NCBI GenBank assembly: GCA_903848645.1
Contig: CAINGU010000005.1
Span: forward strand, 1-64,000
DNA: 64,000 nucleotides
Source of the DNA: an uncultured cyanobacterium
GTDB taxonomy: Bacteria > Cyanobacteriota > Cyanobacteriia > Cyanobacteriales > Nostocaceae
Direction: 5' to 3'
Under the pieces are notes generated by a model. It saw only the letters and a program-made list of their open reading frames with translations, ran no database searches and was not told the origin of the DNA. This document shows positions 22,559 through 36,750 of the stretch, in pieces; the stretch's first letter is position 1; each line of letters opens with the position of its first letter. The translations under genes and the position numbers were made by a program.

Positions 22559-24835
22559 TTAAATGTGATTATGGAAAGTCCGTTTAATCACATCTAGCTG
22601 TTGTTCATGGGTTAATTTAATGAAGTTAACCGCATATCCAGAAACGCGAATTGTTAGTTGAGGATATTTTTCAGGATGGTCTATTGCATCGAGAAGTGTA
22701 TCCTTATCCAGAACATTAACATTAATATGGTGTCCTCCATTATGGAAATAACCATCTAACATTCCACTGAGGTTATTAATTTTGTCCTGAGCAGTTTTAC
22801 CCAAGGCATTAGGGATAATAGAAAAGGTGTAAGAAATGCCATCTTGAGCGTGTTCATAAGGTAGTTTAGCCACAGATTCAAGAGATGCAATTGCTCCTTT
22901 TGTATCTCTACCATGTAGAGGATTTGCACCAGGAGCAAAGGGTTCACCGGCTTTTCTACCATCAGGTGTATTCCCTGTCATTTTGCCATAAACAACGTTC
23001 GAGGTAATTGTTAAAACTGATTGAGTTGGTACAGCATGACGATAGGTTTTTTGTTGACGAAGTTTATTCATGAAGGTGTGGACAAGATTAACTGCTATTT
23101 CATCCACCTGATCATCATTATTACCAAACTGAGGATAATCTCCTTCAATTTGATAATCTATCGCTAAACCATTTTCATCACGAATTGGTTTTACTTTCGC
23201 ATATTTAATTGCTGATAAAGCATCTGTTACCACCGATAAACCTGCAATACCACAAGCTAATGTCCGATAAACATCACGATCATGTAACGCCATTTCGATG
23301 CGTTCATAACTATATTTATCGTGCATATAGTGGATGACATTTAGAGTATTGACATACAAGTTAGCCAACCAATCCATGATTTTGTCGAATTTTTCCACCA
23401 CTTCTTCATAATCTAAATATTCGGAAGTAATGGGGACAAAACCCGCAGCGATAATCTTGCCTGTTTTTTCATCTTTGCCACCATTAATGGCATATAATAA
23501 CGCTTTGGCTAAGTTCGCACGAGCGCCAAAAAATTGCATTTGTTTACCAATTCGCATCGCTGAAACACAGCAAGCAATGGCATAATCATCGCCATATTCT
23601 GGACGCATTAAATCGTCATTTTCGTATTGAATAGAACTGCTATCAATGGAAACTTGAGTACAGAATTGTTTAAAGCTAACGGGCAAATTTTCTGACCAAA
23701 GCACAGTTAAATTAGGTTCTGGTGCAGCACCTAAATTATATAAAGTGTGTAAAAAACGAAAGCTAGTTTTAGTAACTAAAGAACGTCCATCTTCTCCCAT
23801 ACCACCAATACATTCTGTTACCCAAGTAGGATCACCAGAGAATAATTGATTATATTCTGGTGTTCTTAAAAAGCGCACCATTCGCAATTTGATGACAAAA
23901 TGATCAATGATTTCTTGAGCTTGCGATTCTGTTAATGTGCCATTTTTAAAATCTCGCTCAAAGTAGATATCGAGGAAAGTAGAAACTCTTCCCAAAGACA
24001 TGGCTGCACCATTTTGTTCTTTAACAGCACCTAAATAAGCAAAGTAAGTCCATTGCACAGCTTCTTTGCCATTAGCAGCCGGCAAACTGATATCAAAGCC
24101 ATAACTAGCTGCCATAACTTTGAGTTCTTGCAATGCTCGAATTTGCTCAAAAATCTCCTCATGTAGTCGAATTGTTGCTTCTACCATATCGTCTAATTCT
24201 AACGATTCTAGTTGCTCTTTTTTATCGAGAATTAAACGATCAACTCCATACAATGCGACACGACGATAATCACCAATAATTCTCCCCCGTCCATAAGCAT
24301 CTGGTAATCCGGTAATAATCCCAGAATGCCTTGCTAATTTCATTTGTCGAGTGTAACCACCAAAAACACCATCATTGTGGGTTTTACGATATTTAGTAAA
24401 TATCTCTTCTGTTTGCGGATCAAGTTGGTAATTATAAGATTCTAAAGAATTTTTTACCACCCGAATTCCACCAAAAGGCATAATCGCCCGTTTCAATGGT
24501 TTATCAGTTTGTAACCCGACAATTTGCTCTATTGTAGGATCAATATAACCAGGAGCATGAGAAACAATTGTTGATGGTACTTGAGTATCAGTATCTAAAA
24601 TGCCTTTTTCCCGTTCCAATTTCATCAAATCACCGACTAAACTCCAGAGGGTTTGAGTGCGTTCAGTCGCATTAGCTAAAAAGCTATCATCTCCAGAGTA
24701 AGGTGTGTAATTAGTTTGAATAAAATCACGCACATCTATTTCTTGATTCCATTTACCAACCACAAAATCTTGCCATTGTTCGCACAAATTAGAGCTAGAT
24801 TTTTCTGGGCTTTGACGTTCTAAATTAGCAACCAT
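22559..24835 (-). CDS. pflB: Pyruvate formate-lyase
   Basis: Glycyl-radical enzyme splitting pyruvate with CoA into acetyl-CoA and formate under anoxia. The adjacent catalytic cysteines are in [15 protein letters not shown] and the radical glycine in [14 protein letters not shown], close to the C-terminus. [20 protein letters not shown] and [19 protein letters not shown] are standard PflB. Length 758 equals E. coli PflB. It needs the activase at 27607-28395. Downstream are hoxW (25 bp) and the ACD-GNAT gene; upstream is adhE, separated by 117 bp holding a hairpin. PFL occurs in only some cyanobacteria and marks real fermentative capacity. Confidence 0.96.
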
Positions 24836-24876
24836 AATTACCTCTTTTACAATTCAAACTTAAAAATGTGGGGGCA

Positions 24877-24941
24877 AGATCCCCGACTTCTTATTTGCTG
24901 ATGTCAATAATTTATCACTCGTCTTCAGAAGTCGGGGATCT
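24877..24941. repeat. Inverted repeat between adhE and pflB
   Basis: AGATCCCCGACTTCT (24877-24891) and AGAAGTCGGGGATCT (24927-24941) form perfect 15-bp arms with a 35-nt loop. Similar but imperfect hairpins lie at 29854-29888 and 41103-41135, so this is a dispersed repeat. Within the operon it could set the relative adhE and pflB mRNA levels by attenuation or mRNA-end protection. Confidence 0.8.
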
Positions 24942-24952
24942 GGTTTCTACTA

Positions 24953-27547
24953 TTACTTATTTCCCCGATAAGCTTTGATATACAAATCCTGTAAATCACT
25001 AATTAAAGGATAACGAGGATTTGCCCCTGTACATTGATCATCAAAAGCTTGTTCTGCCATTGATTCTAACTTGTCATAGAAGGTTTGTTCATCTGCTTTA
25101 ATGAAATCCTTAATAGTTAGGGGAATTTCTACATCCTGTTTGAGTTTTTCCACAGCAGCAATTAGCAATTCTACTTTCTCATCTTCTGTGTTTCCTCCTA
25201 AGTCTAAATAATCGGCAATTTTGGCATAACGCCATTTTGCATTTGGATATTCATACTGGGGAAAAATTGCTTGTTTGAAGGGTGCATCTGTCGCATTATA
25301 GCGAATGATATGAGAAATCATTAGGGCATTTGCTAACCCGTGGGGAACGTGGAATGTAGAGCCTAATTTATGAGCCAGGGAGTGACAAATTCCTAAGAAA
25401 GCATTAGCAAATGCCATGCCGGCGATTGTTGCAGCATAATGGACTTTTTCTCTGGCTTTAGGATCTTTTGCCCCATTTTTGTAAGCAGAAGGCAAGTATT
25501 TAAATAGCAAGCGAATTGCTTCTAAAGCTAACCCCTTGGTATATTCGGAAGCACAGATAGAAACATAAGCCTCCAAGGCGTGAGTTAGGGCATCAATGCC
25601 ACCATAAGCTGTGAGTGGTTTGGGCATATTTAGCACTAATTCGGGGTCAATAATTGCCATATTCGGAGTGAGAGCATAATCAGCCAAGGGGTATTTTATG
25701 CCCGTCCTATCGTCTGTCACAACTGCAAATGGTGTTACTTCTGAACCTGTTCCCGATGTGGTCGGAATTGCCACTAAAATGGCTTTATTTCCTAATTCTG
25801 GCAACGCATATACCCGTTTACGGATGTCCATAAATCGCATTGCTAAACCATCAAATTCTGTTTCTGGATGTTCATACATTAACCAAATTACTTTTGCTGC
25901 GTCCATGGGAGAACCACCACCAATGGCAATAATTACATCTGGATGAAAACTATTAATTTGGGCAAGTCCTTTATTAATAGTTGTTAATGTTGGGTCAGGT
26001 TCAACATCATAAAAAACTTGGGTTTTAATGCCCATTTCTTCGAGAACATTAGTAACTTTTTCCGCAAGTCCTAATTCAAATAATGGTTGATCTGTGATAA
26101 TAAAAGCGCGGTGTTTTCCTGCTAAATCTCCGAGAGCAACGGGTAAGCATCCATATTTAAAATAAACTTTGGGAGGGACGCGAAACCAAAGCATATTTTC
26201 CCGTCTTTCTGTGACGGTTTTAATATTGATAAGATGACGGGGTCCGACATTATCACTAACAGAATTATTTCCCCAACTACCACAGCCTAAGGTTAAAGAT
26301 GGATCAAGTCTAAAGTTATATAAATCACCAATTGCTCCTTGAGAAGATGGCGTATTAACTAACACTCGACTTGTGTGCAATTTATTTTCAAATTCGATAA
26401 TGTGAGGACGGTTTTCTGGTGCTGTGTAAAGTACAGAAGTATGTCCGAGTCCGCCAAATTCAATCAACTTTTCGGCTTTATCAACTGCTTCCGAAAAAGT
26501 TTCTGCCCGATACATTGCTAAAATTGGGGAAAGTTTTTCAGAGGATAAGGCTTCTGTTGTTCCAATTTCTGCGACTTCAGCAATAATTAATTTCGCTTCT
26601 TTGGCTTTTTCTACTCCAGCCATTTCCGCTAGTTTAGCCACAGTTTGACCCACAATTTCGGGATTCAAACGACCATTAACTAAAATCAAATCTCTGACTT
26701 GATGTTTTTCCTGTTCATTCAAGAAATAAGCACCACGAGTCATAAATTCTTGCTTAACACTTTCGTAAATATCATCTAAAACAATCACTGATTGTTCACT
26801 GGCACAAATCATGCCATTATCGAAAGTTTTGCTGATTAAAATTGAAGAAACTGCCATTTTTATATCAGCGGTTGAATCAATTAAAGCGGGGGTATTTCCC
26901 GAACCAACACCCAAGGAAGCATGACCAGAAGAATAAGCAGCCCGCACCATTCCTGGTCCACCAGTGGCGAGAATTAGGTTAATCTGGGGATGCTGCATTA
27001 ACTGTTGAGAAAGTTCAACTGTTGGTTCATCAATCCAACCAATAATTCCTGGGGGCGCTCCTGCTTCAATAGCAGCTTCTAGGATAATTTGTGCAGCTTT
27101 AATTGTGCATTTTTTGGCACGAGGGTGGGGTGAGAAAATAATCCCATTCCGGGTTTTAAGAGCCAATAAAGCTTTAAAAATAGCTGTCGAAGTTGGGTTT
27201 GTAACGGGAACAATTCCGGCTAGTATTCCTACAGGTTCAGCTATTCTTTGAATGCCAAATTGTTTATCATCTTCAATGATGCCACAGGTTTTTTCGGTTT
27301 TGTATTTGTTATAAATATATTCGGAAGCAAAGTGGTTTTTAATCACTTTATCTTCTATAACACCCATGCCTGTTTCTTCTACAGCCATTTTTGCTAAGGG
27401 AATCCGAGCCGAATTCGCAGCGCGAGCAGCTTGTTTGAAGATGTGATCTACCTGTTCTTGGGTATATTCTGCATATTGAGTTTGAGCGGCTTTAACTTGT
27501 TGAATTAAAACTTTGAGTTCTTCTAAATTTGTAACTTTAGTTTTCAT
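24953..27547 (-). CDS. adhE: Bifunctional acetaldehyde-CoA/alcohol dehydrogenase AdhE
   Basis: Reduces acetyl-CoA to ethanol with two NADH, recycling NAD+ from glycolysis. Residues 1-440 are the aldehyde dehydrogenase module, with the catalytic Cys in NGMICASEQSVIV and ATGGPGMVRAAYSSG. Residues 460-860 are the iron-dependent alcohol dehydrogenase, with IIAIGGGSPMDAAKVIWL, PTTSGTGSEVTPFAVV and the iron-binding GICHSLAHKLGSTFHVPHG. Length 864 is normal. It lies 59 bp after pflA and 117 bp before pflB, all on one strand, and uses the acetyl-CoA that PFL makes. Confidence 0.96.
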   Translation of the reverse strand: MKTKVTNLEELKVLIQQVKAAQTQYAEYTQEQVDHIFKQAARAANSARIPLAKMAVEETGMGVIEDKVIKNHFASEYIYNKYKTEKTCGIIEDDKQFGIQRIAEPVGILAGIVPVTNPTSTAIFKALLALKTRNGIIFSPHPRAKKCTIKAAQIILEAAIEAGAPPGIIGWIDEPTVELSQQLMQHPQINLILATGGPGMVRAAYSSGHASLGVGSGNTPALIDSTADIKMAVSSILISKTFDNGMICASEQSVIVLDDIYESVKQEFMTRGAYFLNEQEKHQVRDLILVNGRLNPEIVGQTVAKLAEMAGVEKAKEAKLIIAEVAEIGTTEALSSEKLSPILAMYRAETFSEAVDKAEKLIEFGGLGHTSVLYTAPENRPHIIEFENKLHTSRVLVNTPSSQGAIGDLYNFRLDPSLTLGCGSWGNNSVSDNVGPRHLINIKTVTERRENMLWFRVPPKVYFKYGCLPVALGDLAGKHRAFIITDQPLFELGLAEKVTNVLEEMGIKTQVFYDVEPDPTLTTINKGLAQINSFHPDVIIAIGGGSPMDAAKVIWLMYEHPETEFDGLAMRFMDIRKRVYALPELGNKAILVAIPTTSGTGSEVTPFAVVTDDRTGIKYPLADYALTPNMAIIDPELVLNMPKPLTAYGGIDALTHALEAYVSICASEYTKGLALEAIRLLFKYLPSAYKNGAKDPKAREKVHYAATIAGMAFANAFLGICHSLAHKLGSTFHVPHGLANALMISHIIRYNATDAPFKQAIFPQYEYPNAKWRYAKIADYLDLGGNTEDEKVELLIAAVEKLKQDVEIPLTIKDFIKADEQTFYDKLESMAEQAFDDQCTGANPRYPLISDLQDLYIKAYRGNK

Positions 27548-27606
27548 ACAGTATGGTAAAATGTTGGTATTTGCAGCTTGGATTTTTACAAATTAATCAA
27601 TCGAAT

Positions 27607-28395
27607 TTATTGTACATGAAGTTCATAGCTAATAAAAATGTCTTTCACTTTTTGAATTTGTTCACAAGTAGGAGGTTGAGTATTTTCCAGTTCGTAGTGA
27701 TATCCAAGTTGATGCCACTTGTATTCACCTAATTTGTGAAAAGGTAAAATTTCGATTTTTTCTACATTCGGTAATTTGGACACAAATTCAGCTATTTTGG
27801 TAACATTTTCAGGATGATCCGTCATGTTAGGAACTAACACAAACCGAATCCATGTTGGTTTATTAATGTCTCGTAAATATTCCGCAAATCTCAATGTTGG
27901 TTCGATAGAAACTCCAGTTAAATGTAGGTAAGTCTTAGGATCAAAAGATTTGATATCTAATAATACTAAATCAACAAATTCTAGCACAGGTTTAGATGCT
28001 GTCAAATCGGGAAATCCAGAAGTATCAAGAGCGGTATGAATTTGCAATTCTTGGCAGCGGCGAAAAATTTCTCTGACAAATTCTGGTTGTAGTAAAGGTT
28101 CACCACCGCTAATGGTAACTCCTCCACCAGAAAATTGCATATAAGACCGATATTTTTTAATTTCAGCAATTAATTCATCTGGGGTTGCTTCTATCCCACC
28201 TCCAGTATCACGAGTATCAGGATTGTGACAATAGAGACATCTGAGTAAACAGCCTTGGGTGAAAATAACAAATCGGATACCCGGACCATCAACTGTGCCA
28301 CAAGTTTCTACAGAGTGAATACGACCTGATATTTGAGAAGGTTGGGAAATGGTTTGAGCGAACCTGTTTGGATTTTCATAAGTTGGAGTAGTCAT
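27607..28395 (-). CDS. pflA: Pyruvate formate-lyase activating enzyme
   Basis: Radical-SAM enzyme that generates the glycyl radical on PflB. CLLRCLYCHNPDTRD holds the CxxxCxxC iron-sulfur ligands; GGGVTISGGEPLLQPEF (SAM contact) and LLDIKSFDPKTYLHLTG are typical PflA. 262 residues. The start has a good site, GAGGATTTACT, before ATG. It is first in the presumed pflA-adhE-pflB-hoxW-ACD operon, an inverted gene order compared with E. coli. Its 306-bp upstream interval, shared with a divergent pentapeptide-repeat gene, carries the 17-nt sequence also found before usp-hoxE. Confidence 0.95.
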   Translation of the reverse strand: MTTPTYENPNRFAQTISQPSQISGRIHSVETCGTVDGPGIRFVIFTQGCLLRCLYCHNPDTRDTGGGIEATPDELIAEIKKYRSYMQFSGGGVTISGGEPLLQPEFVREIFRRCQELQIHTALDTSGFPDLTASKPVLEFVDLVLLDIKSFDPKTYLHLTGVSIEPTLRFAEYLRDINKPTWIRFVLVPNMTDHPENVTKIAEFVSKLPNVEKIEILPFHKLGEYKWHQLGYHYELENTQPPTCEQIQKVKDIFISYELHVQ

Positions 28396-29892: not shown

Positions 29893-31341
29893 TTAATTAC
29901 GCCAAATTTGATTAACTACAGTTCCGTTTTTATCCACTAATTCTATTAATAAAGGCATTTGTCCCATAGCATGAGTTGAACAACTTAAACAAGGATCAAA
30001 AGCCCGAATTCCGGCTTCGACACGGTTTAACATTCCTTCTTTTATTTGATCACCTTGGATAAAATGACGGGCAATTTGGGCAACGGTGCGATTCATGGCT
30101 AAGTTATTTTGACCAGTAGCAATAATCAAATTTACCTTTAACATTAAACCATTTTCATCAACTTGATAATGATGAAATAATGTCCCTCTTGGGGCTTCAC
30201 TTGCACCCACAGCTTCTAGACAATTAATACCAGCTTCTGCCCGCAGACGAGTTGATAAAATATCAGGATCATCAAGGATAATTTCTATGTGTTCAATACA
30301 GGCTAAAATTTCAATTAAACGGGCATAGTGATAGAAGAATGATGATTTAACAGTGCCGTTGCCATGACTGCGAAATTCTTTTAATTCTGCGTCTGCTAAA
30401 GGTGTACCAATATGACTGCAAATATTTAATCTAGCTAATGGTCCAACGCGGTACATTCCACTATCTAAACGACAATGATCACTACTATCAGGATAACCTA
30501 AAGGACGGTAGTAAGGAGATTTTAAATAAGAATCTGCTTGCACCGCTTCACCGAGAAATTCATGATAGTTATTGGGGTCAAGTTGATCAGCAACAATGTT
30601 TCCCCCACTATCAACAAAACGGATATGTCCATCATAGGTTTCCCATAAACCTTCAGAACTGACTAAACCCATAAATAAACTAGGGAAATTACCAAAGGTT
30701 TGTGCTTCTTTTTCGTAATCTTTTAATAACCCTTTAAATAACTCTATGGCATTAATTACAGTAGTCCTAGCTTCAGGAATCCGTTGTTGAATGTGAGTGC
30801 GATTTTCTTCAGTTAAAGGATCACGAACTCCACCAGGAACAGCCCAGGAAGGATGGACTTTTTTACCTCCTAATAATTCAATGATTTCTTGTCCAAATTG
30901 CCGTAAACGAATCCCACCTCTAGCCAATTCTGGTTCAGCAGCAATTAAGCCAAATACGTTACGTTTTTGGGGATCACTATCCATGCCTAATAATAAGTCC
31001 GGTGCGCTGAGGTGAAAGAAGCTGAGAGCATGGGATTGGACAATTTGACCTAAATTCATTAAACGGCGTAATTGAGAGGCTGTTTTGGGGATTGTGACAG
31101 CCAAAATGCGATCGCCTGTTTTGGCTGATGCTAATAAGTGACTGACTGGACAAATACCGCAAATTCTCGCCGTAATTCCCGGCATTTCTGGGAAAGGACG
31201 ACCAACACAAAACTTTTCAAAACCGCGAAATTCAGTTACATGAAAATGTGCATCATTTACTTGACCTTCATCATCTAAATAAATGCTAATTTTGGCGTGT
31301 CCCTCAATGCGAGTAACCGGATCAATAACAATTGTTTTCAT
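29893..31341 (-). CDS. hoxH: Bidirectional NiFe hydrogenase large subunit HoxH
   Basis: Carries the NiFe active site. [19 protein letters not shown] is the N-terminal CxxC and DPCLSCSTH the C-terminal CxxC nickel-ligand motif. The latter is followed by a 25-residue tail ([11 protein letters not shown] and on) that HoxW must remove. [14 protein letters not shown] at the N-terminus and 482 residues fit HoxH of the NAD(P)-linked type rather than HupL. It pairs with HoxY (32112-32657). It is last in the hox run, after the CBS-CP12 gene and a 78-bp repeat. Confidence 0.96.
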
Positions 31342-31372: not shown

Positions 31373-31450
31373 TGTAGGTTGGGTTGACGCAAGGAAACCC
31401 AACAAAAGCTTTGATAATGTTGGGTTTTACTTCGTTCTACCCAACCTACA
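31373..31450. repeat. Inverted-repeat element, TGTAGGTTGGGTT family
   Basis: Twelve-base ends TGTAGGTTGGGT (31373-31384) and ACCCAACCTACA (31439-31450) are perfect inverted repeats; an inner copy GTTGGGTTT/AAACCCAAC is also present. It fills most of the gap between the CBS-CP12 gene and hoxH and touches the 3' end of the former. Confidence 0.85.
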
Positions 31451-31452
31451 TA

Positions 31453-32067
31453 TTACAAATCATAAAACCTAGATTCTGCGGCTTCTGGATATTCATCACA
31501 GTAATCTTCAAAGGCAGTTTTCAGAGGTTTTTCGGCGCGTTGGTGAGCCATTTCCGCTTGTATTTCTTCTACCACATCCCAAGCGGCGGCACATTCGGCA
31601 GAATTAGCCCCTTTTTCTGCACAAACAATCCGAGCTTTTTTAATTTCATCTTGTAATTCTTGTTCTAATAAAAATGAGCGCGGTTGTTCTAAACAACTAC
31701 TTCTTGCTAAGATATCAGTAAGTGAAATAATTCCTAATAGTTTACCACTAATTACAGGCGCACGCCGGAGATGATGGTTAGCAAATAATCTGGCTACATA
31801 TTCTAAACCTAATTCTGGATTAACCACAATACAAGGTTTAGTCATAATTTCATAAACACGGATTTTATTCGGATCTTTGCTATAGGAAATTACTTTATAA
31901 ACAATGTCGCTTTCTGTGATAATTCCATAAGCATCTTGTTCATGCCGACGATCTACAATTAATGCTCTCCAATCTCTTGCCCTCATTAAATCAACTGCTT
32001 CTTTAACTGTGGCTGAACTGCGAATCATTGCTACATCTTTGGTCATTACATCTGCTGCTGTTAACAT
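31453..32067 (-). CDS. CBS-CP12 fusion protein in the hydrogenase operon
   Basis: Two CBS domains (residues 1-60, MTKDVAMIRSSATVKEAVDL; 70-125, YEIMTKPCIVVNPELGLEYV) that commonly bind AMP or related adenylates. Residues 135-204 are a CP12 domain: KKARIVCAEKGANSAECAAAWDVVEEIQ contains the CP12 core AAWDxVEE and its N-terminal cysteine pair. The C-terminal segment YCDEYPEAAESRFYDL keeps one cysteine, but Ser replaces the second (canonical ECR becomes ESR), so the GAPDH-binding disulfide should not form. CP12 proteins control GAPDH/PRK of the Calvin cycle, and CBS-CP12 fusions are known in cyanobacteria. Its place between hoxY (44 bp) and hoxH suggests an energy-charge link to hydrogenase or carbon flux; this is inference. 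Confidence 0.88.
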   Translation of the reverse strand: MLTAADVMTKDVAMIRSSATVKEAVDLMRARDWRALIVDRRHEQDAYGIITESDIVYKVISYSKDPNKIRVYEIMTKPCIVVNPELGLEYVARLFANHHLRRAPVISGKLLGIISLTDILARSSCLEQPRSFLLEQELQDEIKKARIVCAEKGANSAECAAAWDVVEEIQAEMAHQRAEKPLKTAFEDYCDEYPEAAESRFYDL

Positions 32068-32111: not shown

Positions 32112-32657
32112 TTAACCAAATTTAATCATGTTTCGTCCATCCATAGCAGGTTTTTCTCCTCTTAATAAGGGTTCAATTGCAGCCTTAATTCGGGAGGCTG
32201 AAGGGGGACAACCTGGTAAATAAATATCAACATCTACTACCTTATGGACAGGGACAACTCTATCTAGTAAAGGGGGAACAATACCTGGTGAATGGGGAAT
32301 TTGTTGATTAATATCTGCTTCTTGAACATAAGCTAATTGTAAAGCTGGTTCAGCACCACCAGCAAGATTACGTAAAGCGGTAATATTACCAGTGACAGCG
32401 CAATCTCCAAAGGAAATGATTGTTTTAGTCCGTTTTCTAATTTTGTGAATTAATTCTAAATGTTCTTCATTAGCTATAGCCCCTTCAACTAATACCACAT
32501 CTACACCTTCTGGATATTCTTTAATATCAGCAATAGGACTATAAACTATATCTACTTGTGCGGCTAAATCTATTAACCATTCATCCAAATCGAGAAAGGA
32601 CATATGACAACCAGAACACCCACCTAACCACACTGTTGCTAATTTAATTTTAGTCAT
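32112..32657 (-). CDS. hoxY: Bidirectional NiFe hydrogenase small subunit HoxY
   Basis: Iron-sulfur electron-relay subunit that contacts HoxH. WLGGCSGCHMSFLDLDEWL, SFGDCAVTGNITALRN and DIYLPGCPPSASRIK supply the Cys ligands of the proximal 4Fe4S cluster. 181 residues with no Tat signal or extra clusters, as expected for a cytoplasmic HoxY. Its start overlaps the stop of the DUF3122 gene by four bases (32654-32657), so translation is coupled. Confidence 0.95.
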   Translation of the reverse strand: MTKIKLATVWLGGCSGCHMSFLDLDEWLIDLAAQVDIVYSPIADIKEYPEGVDVVLVEGAIANEEHLELIHKIRKRTKTIISFGDCAVTGNITALRNLAGGAEPALQLAYVQEADINQQIPHSPGIVPPLLDRVVPVHKVVDVDIYLPGCPPSASRIKAAIEPLLRGEKPAMDGRNMIKFG

Positions 32658-33190
32658 TTTTTCACCTCTTTAGTTGAAATTAATGATTGCCATTCTTTCA
32701 CAACATGGGTAGGAACTGAAATATTAATGAAGTTGTTTCCAGGTAAAGATATAGATAAAGATAAAGTTAAAGATTCTAGAGGCAATTGGGGTAAGATTTC
32801 TGTGAAATCATATTGACCAATTGTAGGGGCTGGGGCTTCATCTACAAATATATCATCAGCTTGCCAATTTTTACCTGTATTGGTAGTAATTCTTAAAGGT
32901 TGGGGATGAATTAATTCCGCAGAACCAGGAAAGCCCACTAAGCGAAGATTTATATTAGATGATTGTCCAGAATTTACTTGTTTAAATAAAACAACCTGCC
33001 AAACTTTCCCTGATTGATCATCTAATTTTACTTGTGAGCGATAAATAACTTCTCCTGGTGGGTTTCCTAACTGAGTAACAGCAGCAAATGCTTTCCCAGA
33101 TGTGAGGTTTACTAAACCCAGGAATATAAATATTGTCAATATCCCCAGTAATAGAATTTTTCTAAATGTTTGTCGAATATGGTGGATCAT
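32654..33190 (-). CDS. Exported DUF3122-like protein in the hox operon
   Basis: 178 residues. An N-terminal signal or anchor (ILLLGILTIFIFLGLVNL, then SGKAFA/AV) is followed by a beta-rich domain (VIYRSQVKLDDQSGKVWQVV, INLRLVGFPGSAELIHPQPL). It resembles the cyanobacterial DUF3122 family as I remember it. It overlaps hoxY by four bases and follows hoxU by 45 bp, so it is firmly within the operon, yet the hydrogenase is cytoplasmic and this protein is predicted to be exported to the thylakoid lumen or periplasm. Role unknown. Confidence 0.75.
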   Translation of the reverse strand: MIHHIRQTFRKILLLGILTIFIFLGLVNLTSGKAFAAVTQLGNPPGEVIYRSQVKLDDQSGKVWQVVLFKQVNSGQSSNINLRLVGFPGSAELIHPQPLRITTNTGKNWQADDIFVDEAPAPTIGQYDFTEILPQLPLESLTLSLSISLPGNNFINISVPTHVVKEWQSLISTKEVKK

Positions 33191-33235: not shown

Positions 33236-33952
33236 TTAAAAATTCCATTGTTTTTTCTCTCTAGCCGTTACTAAAAATTCAATTTTACCGCGATCATGTA
33301 CCATTTCCCCAACACTTGAACCTTTATCAAATAGCGCACCTGTGGGACAAGCATTCACACATTTACCACAGGAAGTACAAGTTTGGGAAGTTCCCCAAGG
33401 CTGATTTAAATCAGTAATCACGTGAGATTTTGAGCCTCTTCCTGCCATATCCCAAGTATGTGCGCCTTCGATTTCATCACATACCCGCACACAGCGAGTA
33501 CAAAGGACACAACGATTATGATCTATGCCAAAAAGATGATGAGAAGTATCAACAGTTCGCTGAGGATTTTGATATTCTAACCGCACATGATCCATGCCCA
33601 TTTCTATGGCTAAATCTTGTAATTCACAATTACCATTAGCAACACAAACTGAGCAAATGTGATTACCTTCAGCAAATAACATTTCTACAATTGTCCGACG
33701 ATATTTTTGTAAGCGATCGCTATTTGTATTTACCTCCATTCCTTCTGTAACCTTAGTCACACAAGCCGGTTGTAATTTATTACTACCTCCGATTTCTACC
33801 AAACATAACCGACAAGCACCCACTTCTCCTACACCTTCTAAATGACATAATGTAGGAATATGAATACCAGCTTGCTGGGAGGCTTCTAGTAAGGTTTCAT
33901 CCTCACGGGCGCTCACAAGTTCGCCATTTATTGTTAAAGTTTTTACAGTCAT
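33236..33952 (-). CDS. hoxU: Bidirectional hydrogenase diaphorase subunit HoxU
   Basis: 238 residues, relative of the NuoG N-terminus. A 2Fe2S ferredoxin-like domain ([20 protein letters not shown]) comes first, then a His-Cys3-type cluster site ([15 protein letters not shown]), then a 2x4Fe4S ferredoxin domain ([28 protein letters not shown]). It carries electrons between HoxF and HoxY. It is separated from hoxF by 128 bp of heptamer repeats and followed by the DUF3122 gene. Confidence 0.95.
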
Positions 33953-34009: not shown

Positions 34010-34093
34010 ACAACTGACAACTAACAACTAACAACTGACAACTGACAACTGACTACTGACAACTGACTACTGACTACTGACTACTGACTACTA
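34010..34093. repeat. Heptamer tandem repeats reaching into the 3' end of hoxF
   Basis: Runs of ACAACTG, ACAACTA and CTACTGA units. The hoxF stop codon and its last residues (VSSQ) are read from the repeat (minus strand ...AGTAGTCAGTAG), so the tract has eroded or rewritten the gene's end. Confidence 0.85.
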
Positions 34094-35685
34094 ACCAAAG
34101 CTAAATATTCATCATGAAAATAACGCAAAGTGCTAAAAACTGGATTTGGTGCAGACTGTCCTAAACCACACAAACTGGTGTGTTTTACCATGTCGCAAAG
34201 TTCCTCTAACAAATCTAAATCAGCTAGTGAACCTTCTCCTTTACTAATCTTTGTTAATAACCCGTGTAATTGCACAGTTCCCACTCGACAAGGAATGCAC
34301 TTACCACAAGATTCATCCATGCAAAATTCCATGAAAAAGCGAGCGACATCTACCATATTCGTAGTTTGATCCATAACAATCATCCCACCCGAACCCATCA
34401 TTGAACCCAAGGCGGTTAGGGATTCATAATCTACAGGTGTAGCAAAAGCCGACGCAGGAATACATCCCCCTGAAGGACCACCAGTTTGTACTGCTTTAGC
34501 AATACCATTGGGAACACCTCCCCCCATTTCCTCGACAATTTCTTGTAAAGATGTTCCCATTGGGACTTCTATCAAACCCGTATTGCGGATTTTTCCAGCT
34601 AAGGCAAATACCTTTGTGCCTTTGCTTTTACCAGTGCCAATATTAGCAAACCAATCAGCACCTTTACGGACAATGGGCGCGATATTGGCGAAGGTTTCCA
34701 CATTGTTAATTAAGGTCGGATAGCCCCATAAACCGGACTCAGCGGGATAAGGGGGACGGGGATGAGGGACACCGCGTTTACCTTCAATCGAAGCCATTAA
34801 AGCCGTTTCTTCACCGCAGACATAAGCCCCTGCACCAATGCGGATGGCGATTTTAAAATCAAAGGGAGAGTCAAAGATTTGTGAACCTAAAAGTCCTAAG
34901 TGTTGGGCTTGACGAATTGCCGTTTCTAGGCGTTTAATAGCAATGGGATATTCTGCCCTAACATAAATATAGCCTTGATTTGCGCCGATGGAGTAAGCAG
35001 CGATCGCCATTCCTTCCAAAACTCGATGGGGATCACTTTCTAATACACTGCGATCCATAAATGCACCGGGATCACCTTCATCAGCATTACAAATCACAAA
35101 CTTTTTCTCACCGGGAGATTTTGCCACTGTTCCCCATTTTAAACCCGTGGGATAACCAGCCCCACCCCGTCCCCGCAAACCGCTTTTGGTAATTGTTTCC
35201 ACTACCTGACTGGGTTTCATTTCTCGCAGCACTTGGTAAAGGGCTTGATAACCATCAGCCGCAATGTAAGCTTGAATGCGTTCGGGGTCAATTTTGCCGC
35301 TATTTTCCAAAACAATGGGGAATTGACGGCTAAAAAATGGCTGATTCAAATCACCCTGTTGTAAATTTGTGGCTTCTCCATTTACCCCCGCAATAATTTT
35401 TGCGGCATGATCTGGGGTAACTTTTTCATACAACTTTGCTTCCGTAGGATGTTCTGGAATATCCACCTGTACCAATGGTCCTTGACAGCACAGACGCATA
35501 CAACCCACACCGGAAACTTCTACAGTATCTTGTAAACCCGCAGCTTTCACAGATGATTCTAAATTATCTTTGACAGCTTGGGAGTGAGAAGACAGACAAC
35601 CCGCAGCGGTACAACAGCGAATCTGCACAGGTTTCTGTTGAGAACGTTCTTTTTGACCAATTTCTAATAATTCATTTAGTTCCAT
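34081..35685 (-). CDS. hoxF: Bidirectional hydrogenase diaphorase subunit HoxF
   Basis: 534 residues with FMN, NAD(P)H and Fe-S sites. The N-terminal thioredoxin-like 2Fe2S domain is [13 protein letters not shown]...[29 protein letters not shown] is the NADH/FMN-binding loop. [12 protein letters not shown] plus [11 protein letters not shown] hold the C-terminal 4Fe4S cysteines. It overlaps hoxE by 14 bp (translational coupling). Its final residues come from a heptamer repeat tract. Confidence 0.96.
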
Positions 35686-36184
35686 CTTTCAACCATTCTC
35701 CCACTTTTTTAGATACTGATTCCGGGGTTTGATCACCTAAAACAGCGCCATCAAACACTACCGCAGGGGCAATTCCACAAGCCCCCAAACATCTAGCTGT
35801 CATCAGAGAAATTTGACCATTTGGGGTAGTTTCTCCTGCGTGAATTTGCGTAAATTGCTCTAACTTAGTTAAGATAGTCTGTGAGCCTTTGACATAACAA
35901 GCTGTACCCGTACAAATCACACAGTTATGAACCCCTTTCGGTACAAGAGAAAACAAATGATAAAAAGTAGCCACCCCGTAAACCCGACTAGGTGGTAATT
36001 TCAGGCTATGGGAAATGTACAATAATAAATCCAGTTCTAAATAACCAAATAGTTCAGAAGCCCGATGCAGAATTTCAATAAGTGCATCTTGTTGATATTG
36101 ATGACGCTTGATAGTTGCGTCCAACATCTTTAAACGCTTATCTTCACTTGGATGATTTGAAGAAGGTAAAACTGAAGTTTTCAT
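35672..36184 (-). CDS. hoxE: Bidirectional hydrogenase subunit HoxE
   Basis: 170 residues, related to NuoE. A thioredoxin-like fold with a 2Fe2S cluster: [11 protein letters not shown] provides two cysteines and [14 protein letters not shown] the others. [36 protein letters not shown] is typical of HoxE/NuoE. It mediates electron exchange of the diaphorase with ferredoxin/NAD(P)H or the membrane in cyanobacteria. It follows usp by 35 bp. Confidence 0.95.
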
Positions 36185-36219: not shown

Positions 36220-36750
36220 CTAATTACTAAAAGTGGTAGTTTCTGAAGCAACATTTGTTGTTTTCTCACTCACAGGTAAATGTATAATCTGCACTGAACA
36301 AGGTGCATGATGTAATACATAGTTACTCACACTACCGAGAAAAAATTCTGCAACTCCAGAACGTCCCCGTCGTCCCATCATAATCAAGTCAGCATTCCAA
36401 TTTTTGGCTAATTCACAAATCATCCGTCCTGGATTACCAGCATTTTGAGTAAATTCTGTATTAATACCGGATGTGTTCGCTTGGGCGCTTAGTGACTGTA
36501 AGATTTGCAAACCTTCGTTTTTAAATTTTTCCCAATGTTCTTGGTATAATTGAAAACTTTGCTCACTCCATCCGGGATAGTAGTCAATATTGGGGAAAAT
36601 CAGTGCTTCTGGACTACCTTCTTCTTCCTGTGAGAGAACGTGCAGTAACATTAAGCTTGCAGATGTTAACTTTGCTAAAGATAAAGCTTGTTTAAAAACT
36701 TCTGCACTCATTTCTGAACGATCTATTGCAACTAAGATTTTTTTAACCAT
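36220..36750 (-). CDS. Universal stress protein (UspA family)
   Basis: 176 residues. KKILVAIDRSEMSAEVFKQAL begins the fold, and MMGRRGRSGVAEFFLGSVSNYVL carries the ATP-binding G-2x-G-9x-G-S pattern, so it should bind ATP. Usp proteins of this kind often appear with anaerobic or energy-starvation regulons. It is the first gene of the unit running into hoxE (35 bp gap), and the shared 17-nt sequence lies 105 bp upstream. Confidence 0.88.
   Translation of the reverse strand: MVKKILVAIDRSEMSAEVFKQALSLAKLTSASLMLLHVLSQEEEGSPEALIFPNIDYYPGWSEQSFQLYQEHWEKFKNEGLQILQSLSAQANTSGINTEFTQNAGNPGRMICELAKNWNADLIMMGRRGRSGVAEFFLGSVSNYVLHHAPCSVQIIHLPVSEKTTNVASETTTFSN

Follow-up and report, generated by a model that had tools for sequence, protein, structure and literature searches.

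CBS-CP12 proteins, in which two CBS domains are followed by a CP12 domain, constitute an already known family. The Microcystis CBS-CP12 protein is described, in the available part of a review, as a light-induced hexamer that binds AMP and inhibits the thioredoxin activation of phosphoribulokinase (PRK). According to the accessible text of a review and of a research paper, CBS-CP12 does not form the GAPDH-PRK complex; modelling suggested that GAPDH binding is impossible for CBS-CP12 fusions (PMC3906501, portion available), and the CBS-CP12 protein of PCC 7002 is reported, again in partial text, to fail to replace CP12 in Synechocystis. The class name CP12-N-CBS, as it appears in the accessible text of the review PMC3906501, agrees with a broken C-terminal cysteine pair. 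Within the literature text available, we found no account of CBS-CP12 as a part of the hox operon or as a gene that outlives hox, although Hackenberg 2018 and Stanley 2013 may contain one, and no CBS-domain gene is mentioned in the available text on the hox clusters of Lyngbya.

In this work, we analyzed a window of 64,000 nucleotides, the whole stretch of DNA under study, from an uncultured cyanobacterium of the Nostocaceae, focusing on a gene located within its hox operon. A single minus-strand open reading frame matches positions 31453-32067, and the plus strand displays many stops there. In the 204-aa product, Pfam recognized a complete CP12 domain at residues 134-203 (E 1e-28), preceded by two CBS stretches (E 9e-26), the order that defines the CBS-CP12 family; the closest solved structure by sequence was that of Microcystis CBS-CP12 (PDB 5nmu), aligned over residues 2-203 (E 3e-73), and an NCBIfam search of the protein returned no family above the cut-off. 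These matches lie far beyond chance and confirm a genuine CBS-CP12, including the C-terminal CP12 part, as the first-pass annotation had proposed. The residues on which that annotation relied were equally borne out by the translation, namely the N-terminal pair C149 and C159, the CP12 core AWDVVEE (residues 162-168), C190, and a serine at position 199, within ESRFYD, where the second cysteine of the C-terminal pair would stand. The N-terminal pair, the core and the incomplete C-terminal pair place the protein in the CP12-N-CBS class, and Ser199 sets it apart from a canonical GAPDH-locking CP12, which has two cysteine pairs. In CBS domains, the motif G-h-x-[T/S]-x-x-D contacts the ribose of the adenylate. 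This adenylate-site motif is intact in both CBS domains of the window protein, with T51, D54, S115 and D118 all present; both aspartates are found in 177/177 CBS-CP12 sequences from five classes, and position 51 is T or S in 176 of them. The window genome holds this one CBS-CP12 gene and two further CP12 genes, which their short open frames (96 and 85 aa) mark as stand-alone. As a protein, the window CBS-CP12 is ordinary; what is informative is its genomic place and its history, and its retention pattern is the part for which the literature text available gave no description.

On the minus strand, the operon reads Usp (universal stress protein), hoxE, hoxF, hoxU, DUF3122, hoxY, CBS-CP12 and hoxH (Table 1), and the position between hoxY and hoxH reported in the first-pass annotation therefore holds, with all three genes on one strand, a point on which that annotation was silent. 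The same order was observed in Anabaena, Dolichospermum, Sphaerospermopsis and Nostoc records (L124, L136, L140, L144), and the median gaps are 85 bp from hoxY to CBS-CP12 (n = 91 loci, duplicates included) and 114 bp from CBS-CP12 to hoxH (n = 89).

Table 1. Features of the CBS-CP12 gene and of the surrounding hox operon in the window.
Feature	Position	Strand	Basis
CBS-CP12 fusion protein, 204 aa	31453..32067	-	ORF, Pfam domains, PDB match 5nmu
First CBS domain, about residues 5-62	31882..32055	-	Pfam, boundary by eye; motif GIITESD 48-54
Second CBS domain, residues 71-121	31705..31857	-	Pfam; motif GIISLTD 112-118
CP12 domain, residues 134-203	31459..31668	-	Pfam
N-terminal Cys pair, C149 and C159	31591..31623	-	Translation, 5nmu alignment
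C190 codon, first Cys of C-terminal pair	31498..31500	-	Translation
S199 codon, replaces second C-terminal Cys	31471..31473	-	Translation; Cys in aligned 5nmu and 6gfo
hoxY (hydrogenase small subunit), next gene upstream, gap of 44 bp	32112..32657	-	ORF, Pfam
hoxH (hydrogenase large subunit), next gene downstream, gap of 111 bp	29893..31341	-	ORF, Pfam
DUF3122 protein, remains beside CBS-CP12 after hox loss	32654..33190	-	Pfam, locus comparison
hoxU	33236..33952	-	ORF, Pfam
hoxF	34081..35685	-	ORF, Pfam
hoxE	35672..36184	-	ORF, Pfam
Universal stress protein (Usp), with CBS-CP12 in 10/11 hox-less-locus genomes	36220..36750	-	Pfam, locus comparison

Two further traits of this region were recorded. 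An imperfect inverted repeat with 28-nt arms (79% complementary) lies at 31373-31450, in the gap between CBS-CP12 and hoxH, and is perhaps a dispersed repeat. The hox operon is closely followed, in the same orientation, by pflB, adhE and pflA at 22559-28395; these three genes were detected at more than 55% identity in none of the 71 related loci scanned (flanks of up to 7-8 kb, some shorter).

The missing cysteine was compared across 177 CBS-CP12 sequences, after duplicate removal, divided into five classes. The second C-terminal cysteine is absent from every parsed sequence of the hox-linked (0/60; 64 in all), hox-less-locus (0/11), other heterocystous (0/14; 15 in all) and outside-family classes (0/59; 67 in all), and present in 16/17 parsed second-copy sequences (20 in all), whose three unparsed tails likewise read PECR. 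These second copies (L264-L283) nearly always carry all four cysteines, and 18 of their 20 loci in the family have an LptF/LptG permease gene next to them. The absence thus characterizes much of the CBS-CP12 family, being the rule in four of the five classes and no peculiarity of the window gene, and the idea that the Cys-to-Ser change marks the hox-linked copies was discarded. Within the hox-linked class, the N-terminal pair is kept as CC in 61/63 parsed sequences and lost in two (L048 and L137), and some lineages display tails that end in WCSG, with a new cysteine, or that lack C190, such as SESLKYEV. Mean pairwise identity is 0.80 for hairpin and core and 0.64 for the tail in the hox class, vs 0.70 and 0.65 outside the family, so the hox-class tail is less kept relative to its hairpin, by a modest difference. 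Among heterocystous CBS-CP12 sequences, WCSG endings were recorded in L151-L153, L155, L158, L161, L163-L165, L167, L175, L176, L178, L179, L181, L183, L189, L191 and L203; their cysteine stands about 14 residues past the first C-terminal one, possibly a rebuilt disulfide with a longer loop.

Across the 145 genomes of the window's family, 76 hold a hox-type copy (several broken by stops), 69 hold hoxH and 58 hold both, in a count where hox-type and second copies were separated by eye at a gap near 275 bits, the pseudogene of G698 was added by hand, G714 (38% contaminated) was kept, and G326, with the two genes on different contigs, was scored as not linked. Hox-type copies are found in 58/69 genomes with hoxH vs 18/76 without it (Fisher p = 1.4e-13, a value that ignores kinship), and in 47 of the 69 no more than 4 kb separates CBS-CP12 from hoxH, which sustains the conserved place beside hox that had been put forward. 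Order-wide (388 genomes), among the best 150 CBS-CP12 matches (262 genomes with a match) and the best 150 hoxH matches (204 genomes with a match), at least 35 genomes carry CBS-CP12 upstream of hoxH in the same orientation, with 21-1050 bp between the two; among the same matches listed, families f58 and f50 contribute at least five genomes in which it lies on the downstream side of hoxH at 2.7-3.9 kb, in some of them beside hypA, hypB and hypF. Nevertheless, CBS-CP12 does not behave as an obligate part of the Hox system, always found with hox and lost with it, since 11 of the 69 genomes with hoxH lack any hox-type copy, 18 of the 76 without hoxH have one, and intact copies stand beside hox scars. 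One genome with hoxH and no hox-type CBS-CP12 is G282, taken as Nodularia spumigena CCY9414, whose hox cluster is described, in the accessible text, as hoxEFUYHW without additional ORFs. The possibility that such operons represent a separate hydrogenase lineage was considered; on the hoxH tree, built with a quick search, they are scattered (63 rows; four changes, of which well-supported branches force at least two). At locus L121 (genome G243), CBS-CP12 is intact and hoxH reads as two separate open frames, which may reflect either incipient decay of hox or an error of assembly.

The gene also survives the loss of its operon. Eleven genomes (19 loci before repeat removal) keep DUF3122 and CBS-CP12 together with no hox gene between or beside them, and Usp is likewise present in 10 of these 11 genomes, being absent in Anabaena lutea; the Nostoc 106C locus (L148) encodes a shortened DUF3122 of 91 aa. 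On the CBS-CP12 tree (122 rows, also built with a quick search), the hox-less loci occupy four places, at least three of them forced by well-supported branches, corresponding to three or four lineages. Scars of hoxU and hoxY stand beside the intact CBS-CP12 of A. lutea: with respect to G740, its nearest neighbor on the CBS-CP12 tree, this locus misses 2311 bp (hoxE, hoxF and the hoxU start), 525 bp in hoxU, 496 bp inside hoxY and 1529 bp over hoxH, and the segments with DUF3122 and CBS-CP12 are retained at 94-95% identity. Furthermore, Nostoc FACHB-152 holds a 19-residue stretch like the start of hoxY (58% identity). In the other two hox-less-locus clades no hox remnant was found, and the direction of change there consequently rests on the tree. 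The reverse course, in which hox would have entered an older Usp-DUF3122-CBS-CP12 module, was considered and rejected for A. lutea and FACHB-152, whose scars and hoxY-like stretch show loss.

No hoxH match was found in the genomes of A. lutea (G729), Calothrix brevissima NIES-22 (G730) and Nostoc sp. T09 (G662), each of which carries one other NiFe-hydrogenase large-subunit gene, probably hupL; hoxH was located elsewhere in five hox-less-locus Nostoc genomes (G638, G715, G741, G750 and G755, a count outside L147, L148 and L157), and the hoxH operon of G638 lacks CBS-CP12. Heterocystous strains are known to carry a hupL excision element. An interruption of about 12 kb divides the window genome's other NiFe-hydrogenase large-subunit gene (G000:C42:50410-63561), which fits such an element, and a split hupL is described for Nodularia in the text available.

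By simple pairwise counting, dN/dS for CBS-CP12 was 0.055 between Nostoc T09 and C. brevissima, both without HoxH (75 synonymous and 26 other changes). Five further comparisons among hox-less loci gave 0.103-0.146, that of A. lutea with G740 gave 0.07, and five pairs of hox loci spanned 0.05-0.25. For DUF3122, values ranged from 0.1 to 0.43, faster than CBS-CP12 in most pairs. The low values at hox-less loci indicate that the function of the protein is kept without the hydrogenase and, because the gene outlives the hox genes in several lineages, its job is probably not the control of the hydrogenase itself. That the hydrogenase is not the sole target of CBS-CP12 is, in our judgment, much better than an even bet; action on the Hox enzyme, which the first-pass annotation had offered, is contradicted as the sole role both by this purifying selection where hox is gone and by the genomes with hoxH that lack a hox-type copy. 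In G383 and G698, which belong to a single genus, the hox genes are broken and CBS-CP12 is likewise interrupted by stops.

The reading we favor, whose chances we put at about even, is that CBS-CP12 acts as an adenylate-gated brake on Calvin-cycle entry, through PRK, and is co-regulated with the hydrogenase without having it as a target. The gene would represent the heterocystous-cyanobacterial type of CBS-CP12, whose CBS pair would read adenylates, if it binds AMP as we infer from the Microcystis homologue; the CP12 hairpin, with its intact cysteine pair and AWD_VEE core, would act on PRK, as suggested by that same homologue, such that a falling energy charge would lead to PRK action and to a slower entry into the Calvin cycle. 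The C-terminal disulfide, the grip of CP12 on GAPDH, is lacking in the window protein, and the role without GAPDH contemplated in the first-pass annotation is rendered plausible by the reported failure of CBS-CP12 to form the GAPDH-PRK complex, in the partial text cited above. The place in the hox operon would bring about co-production with the hydrogenase in dark or micro-oxic conditions, given a probable co-transcription, and the target would lie outside the hydrogenase. The observed basis comprises the domain architecture, the intact motifs, the absent second cysteine, the conserved operon place and the repeated hox-less survival under purifying selection. Against a PRK brake, the characterized Microcystis protein keeps the fourth cysteine, and a role in the dark is poorly suited to a protein whose Microcystis counterpart is reported, in the text available, as light-induced; besides, two hox-linked sequences lack the N-terminal pair, and G383 and G698 lose CBS-CP12 along with hox. 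In addition, the protein could still serve Hox in the five of 11 hox-less-locus genomes that hold hoxH elsewhere, the correlation of its presence with hoxH is as a hydrogenase role would predict, and a Hox role may exist in genomes that hold both. The initial interpretation is, as a whole, partly supported.

A rather unlikely alternative, although the one that survives best, is that CBS-CP12 regulates, in response to adenylates, a target other than PRK, e.g., thioredoxin (as proposed for plant CBSX) or another low-energy enzyme, forming a unit with Usp and DUF3122. The company kept at the hox-less loci, with DUF3122 in all 11 genomes, points in this direction, as does the presence of Usp within 4 kb of the gene in 5/12 other heterocystous loci without hox (4/11 counting the duplicate L203/L216 once) and 0/40 controls, together with the strong alteration of the C-terminal tail in the WCSG and SESLKYEV lineages. 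However, the CP12 hairpin and core are kept better than the tail, the sole characterized homologue acts on PRK in the text available, the A. lutea locus has no Usp, DUF3122 is truncated in Nostoc 106C, and outside the family Usp occurs in only 1/45 and 2/18 loci (L110 and L182 being one locus). A bolder reading, which we regard as unlikely, holds that in heterocystous cyanobacteria a CBS-CP12 left the GAPDH-PRK complex and became the adenylate sensor of a Usp-DUF3122-CBS-CP12 module serving low-energy metabolism; this module would have the bidirectional hydrogenase as only one client of its regulation and would outlive it, its C-terminal redox latch being rebuilt in some lineages (WCSG tail) or discarded.

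That the protein regulates the Hox hydrogenase itself, or helps to assemble it, appears quite improbable. The merits of this reading are the conserved hoxY/hoxH position and the association within the family, the f58 and f50 loci downstream of hoxH, some of them beside hyp genes, and the joint decay in G383 and G698; yet intact, constrained copies persist in genomes without HoxH, and hoxH genomes such as G282 do without a hox-type copy. Some hydrogenase target is still conceivable, given that each of the three HoxH-less genomes retains another NiFe-hydrogenase gene, probably hupL.

Beyond the family, one locus per genus was considered, with the 42 genera drawn from the matches listed nearest the window protein and second genus members omitted (L105, L109, L236, L262, L263). 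Among these matches, hox, hyp, nifJ or pfl-adhE genes lie within 6 kb in 8/42 genera, as opposed to 0/20 stand-alone CP12 loci and 0/20 second-copy loci, these controls being centered on the midpoint (off by 1-1.4 kb in L295 and L302); the one-sided Fisher values (0.035 vs stand-alone CP12 and 0.0033 vs both controls) are too favorable, because the gene set was drawn up after the neighbors were known. For the same set, 3/18 named outside-family loci were positive, all with hypA-hypB, and so were 3/12 other heterocystous loci (two with pflB, one with a weak hypA). As for individual arrangements, nifJ is found directly 3' of CBS-CP12 in the distant cyanobacteria L234, L250, L104 and L108, hypA-hypB precede CBS-CP12 in L239 and L185-L187, and hypF follows it in L105-L107. 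The least probable reading, which we consider very doubtful, is that of a passenger, a gene that adjoins hox by chance, is retained for some unrelated reason and shares no regulation with it. In its favor, the gene outlives hox and is also found away from it in many genomes, but its place is stable across many genera with short gaps, and outside the family it recurs near hydrogenase or fermentation genes.

Should the PRK brake be correct, one operon would yield both an H2-venting enzyme for surplus electrons and a stop on carbon fixation at low energy charge. Genomes with the gene and without HoxH (A. lutea, Nostoc sp. T09 and C. brevissima NIES-22), set against hox without a hox-type CBS-CP12 (G282), constitute a natural experiment that separates the gene from the hydrogenase and allows the role of CBS-CP12 to be tested in vivo, which matters for hydrogen-making strains.

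Among known systems, alr0765 of Anabaena/Nostoc PCC 7120 follows hoxY (alr0764) in the hox gene table of PMC4915528, where the text available calls it a hypothetical protein; hoxH is alr0766, and the position in relatives suggests that alr0765 is a CBS-CP12. Plant CBSX1 and CBSX2 are CBS proteins proposed, in partial text, as thioredoxin modulators; unlike the window protein, plants are described in the accessible part of PMC3906501 as lacking CP12 fusions with CBS. The stand-alone CP12 6gfo aligns with the window protein in hairpin, core and tail, but has no CBS domains and carries a cysteine at the position of S199. With the CP12-N-CBS class (Stanley, Raines and Kerfeld 2013; named in PMC3906501), the window protein shares the CBS fusion, the N-terminal pair, the core and the incomplete C-terminal pair, and the class description, in the portion available, mentions no hox-operon subgroup. 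Finally, the Microcystis aeruginosa CBS-CP12 (PDB 5nmu, 5npl and 5nvd; Hackenberg 2018) shares the architecture over residues 2-203, both CBS motifs and the N-terminal pair, and differs in retaining the second C-terminal cysteine (LECRIYD) where the window protein has serine.
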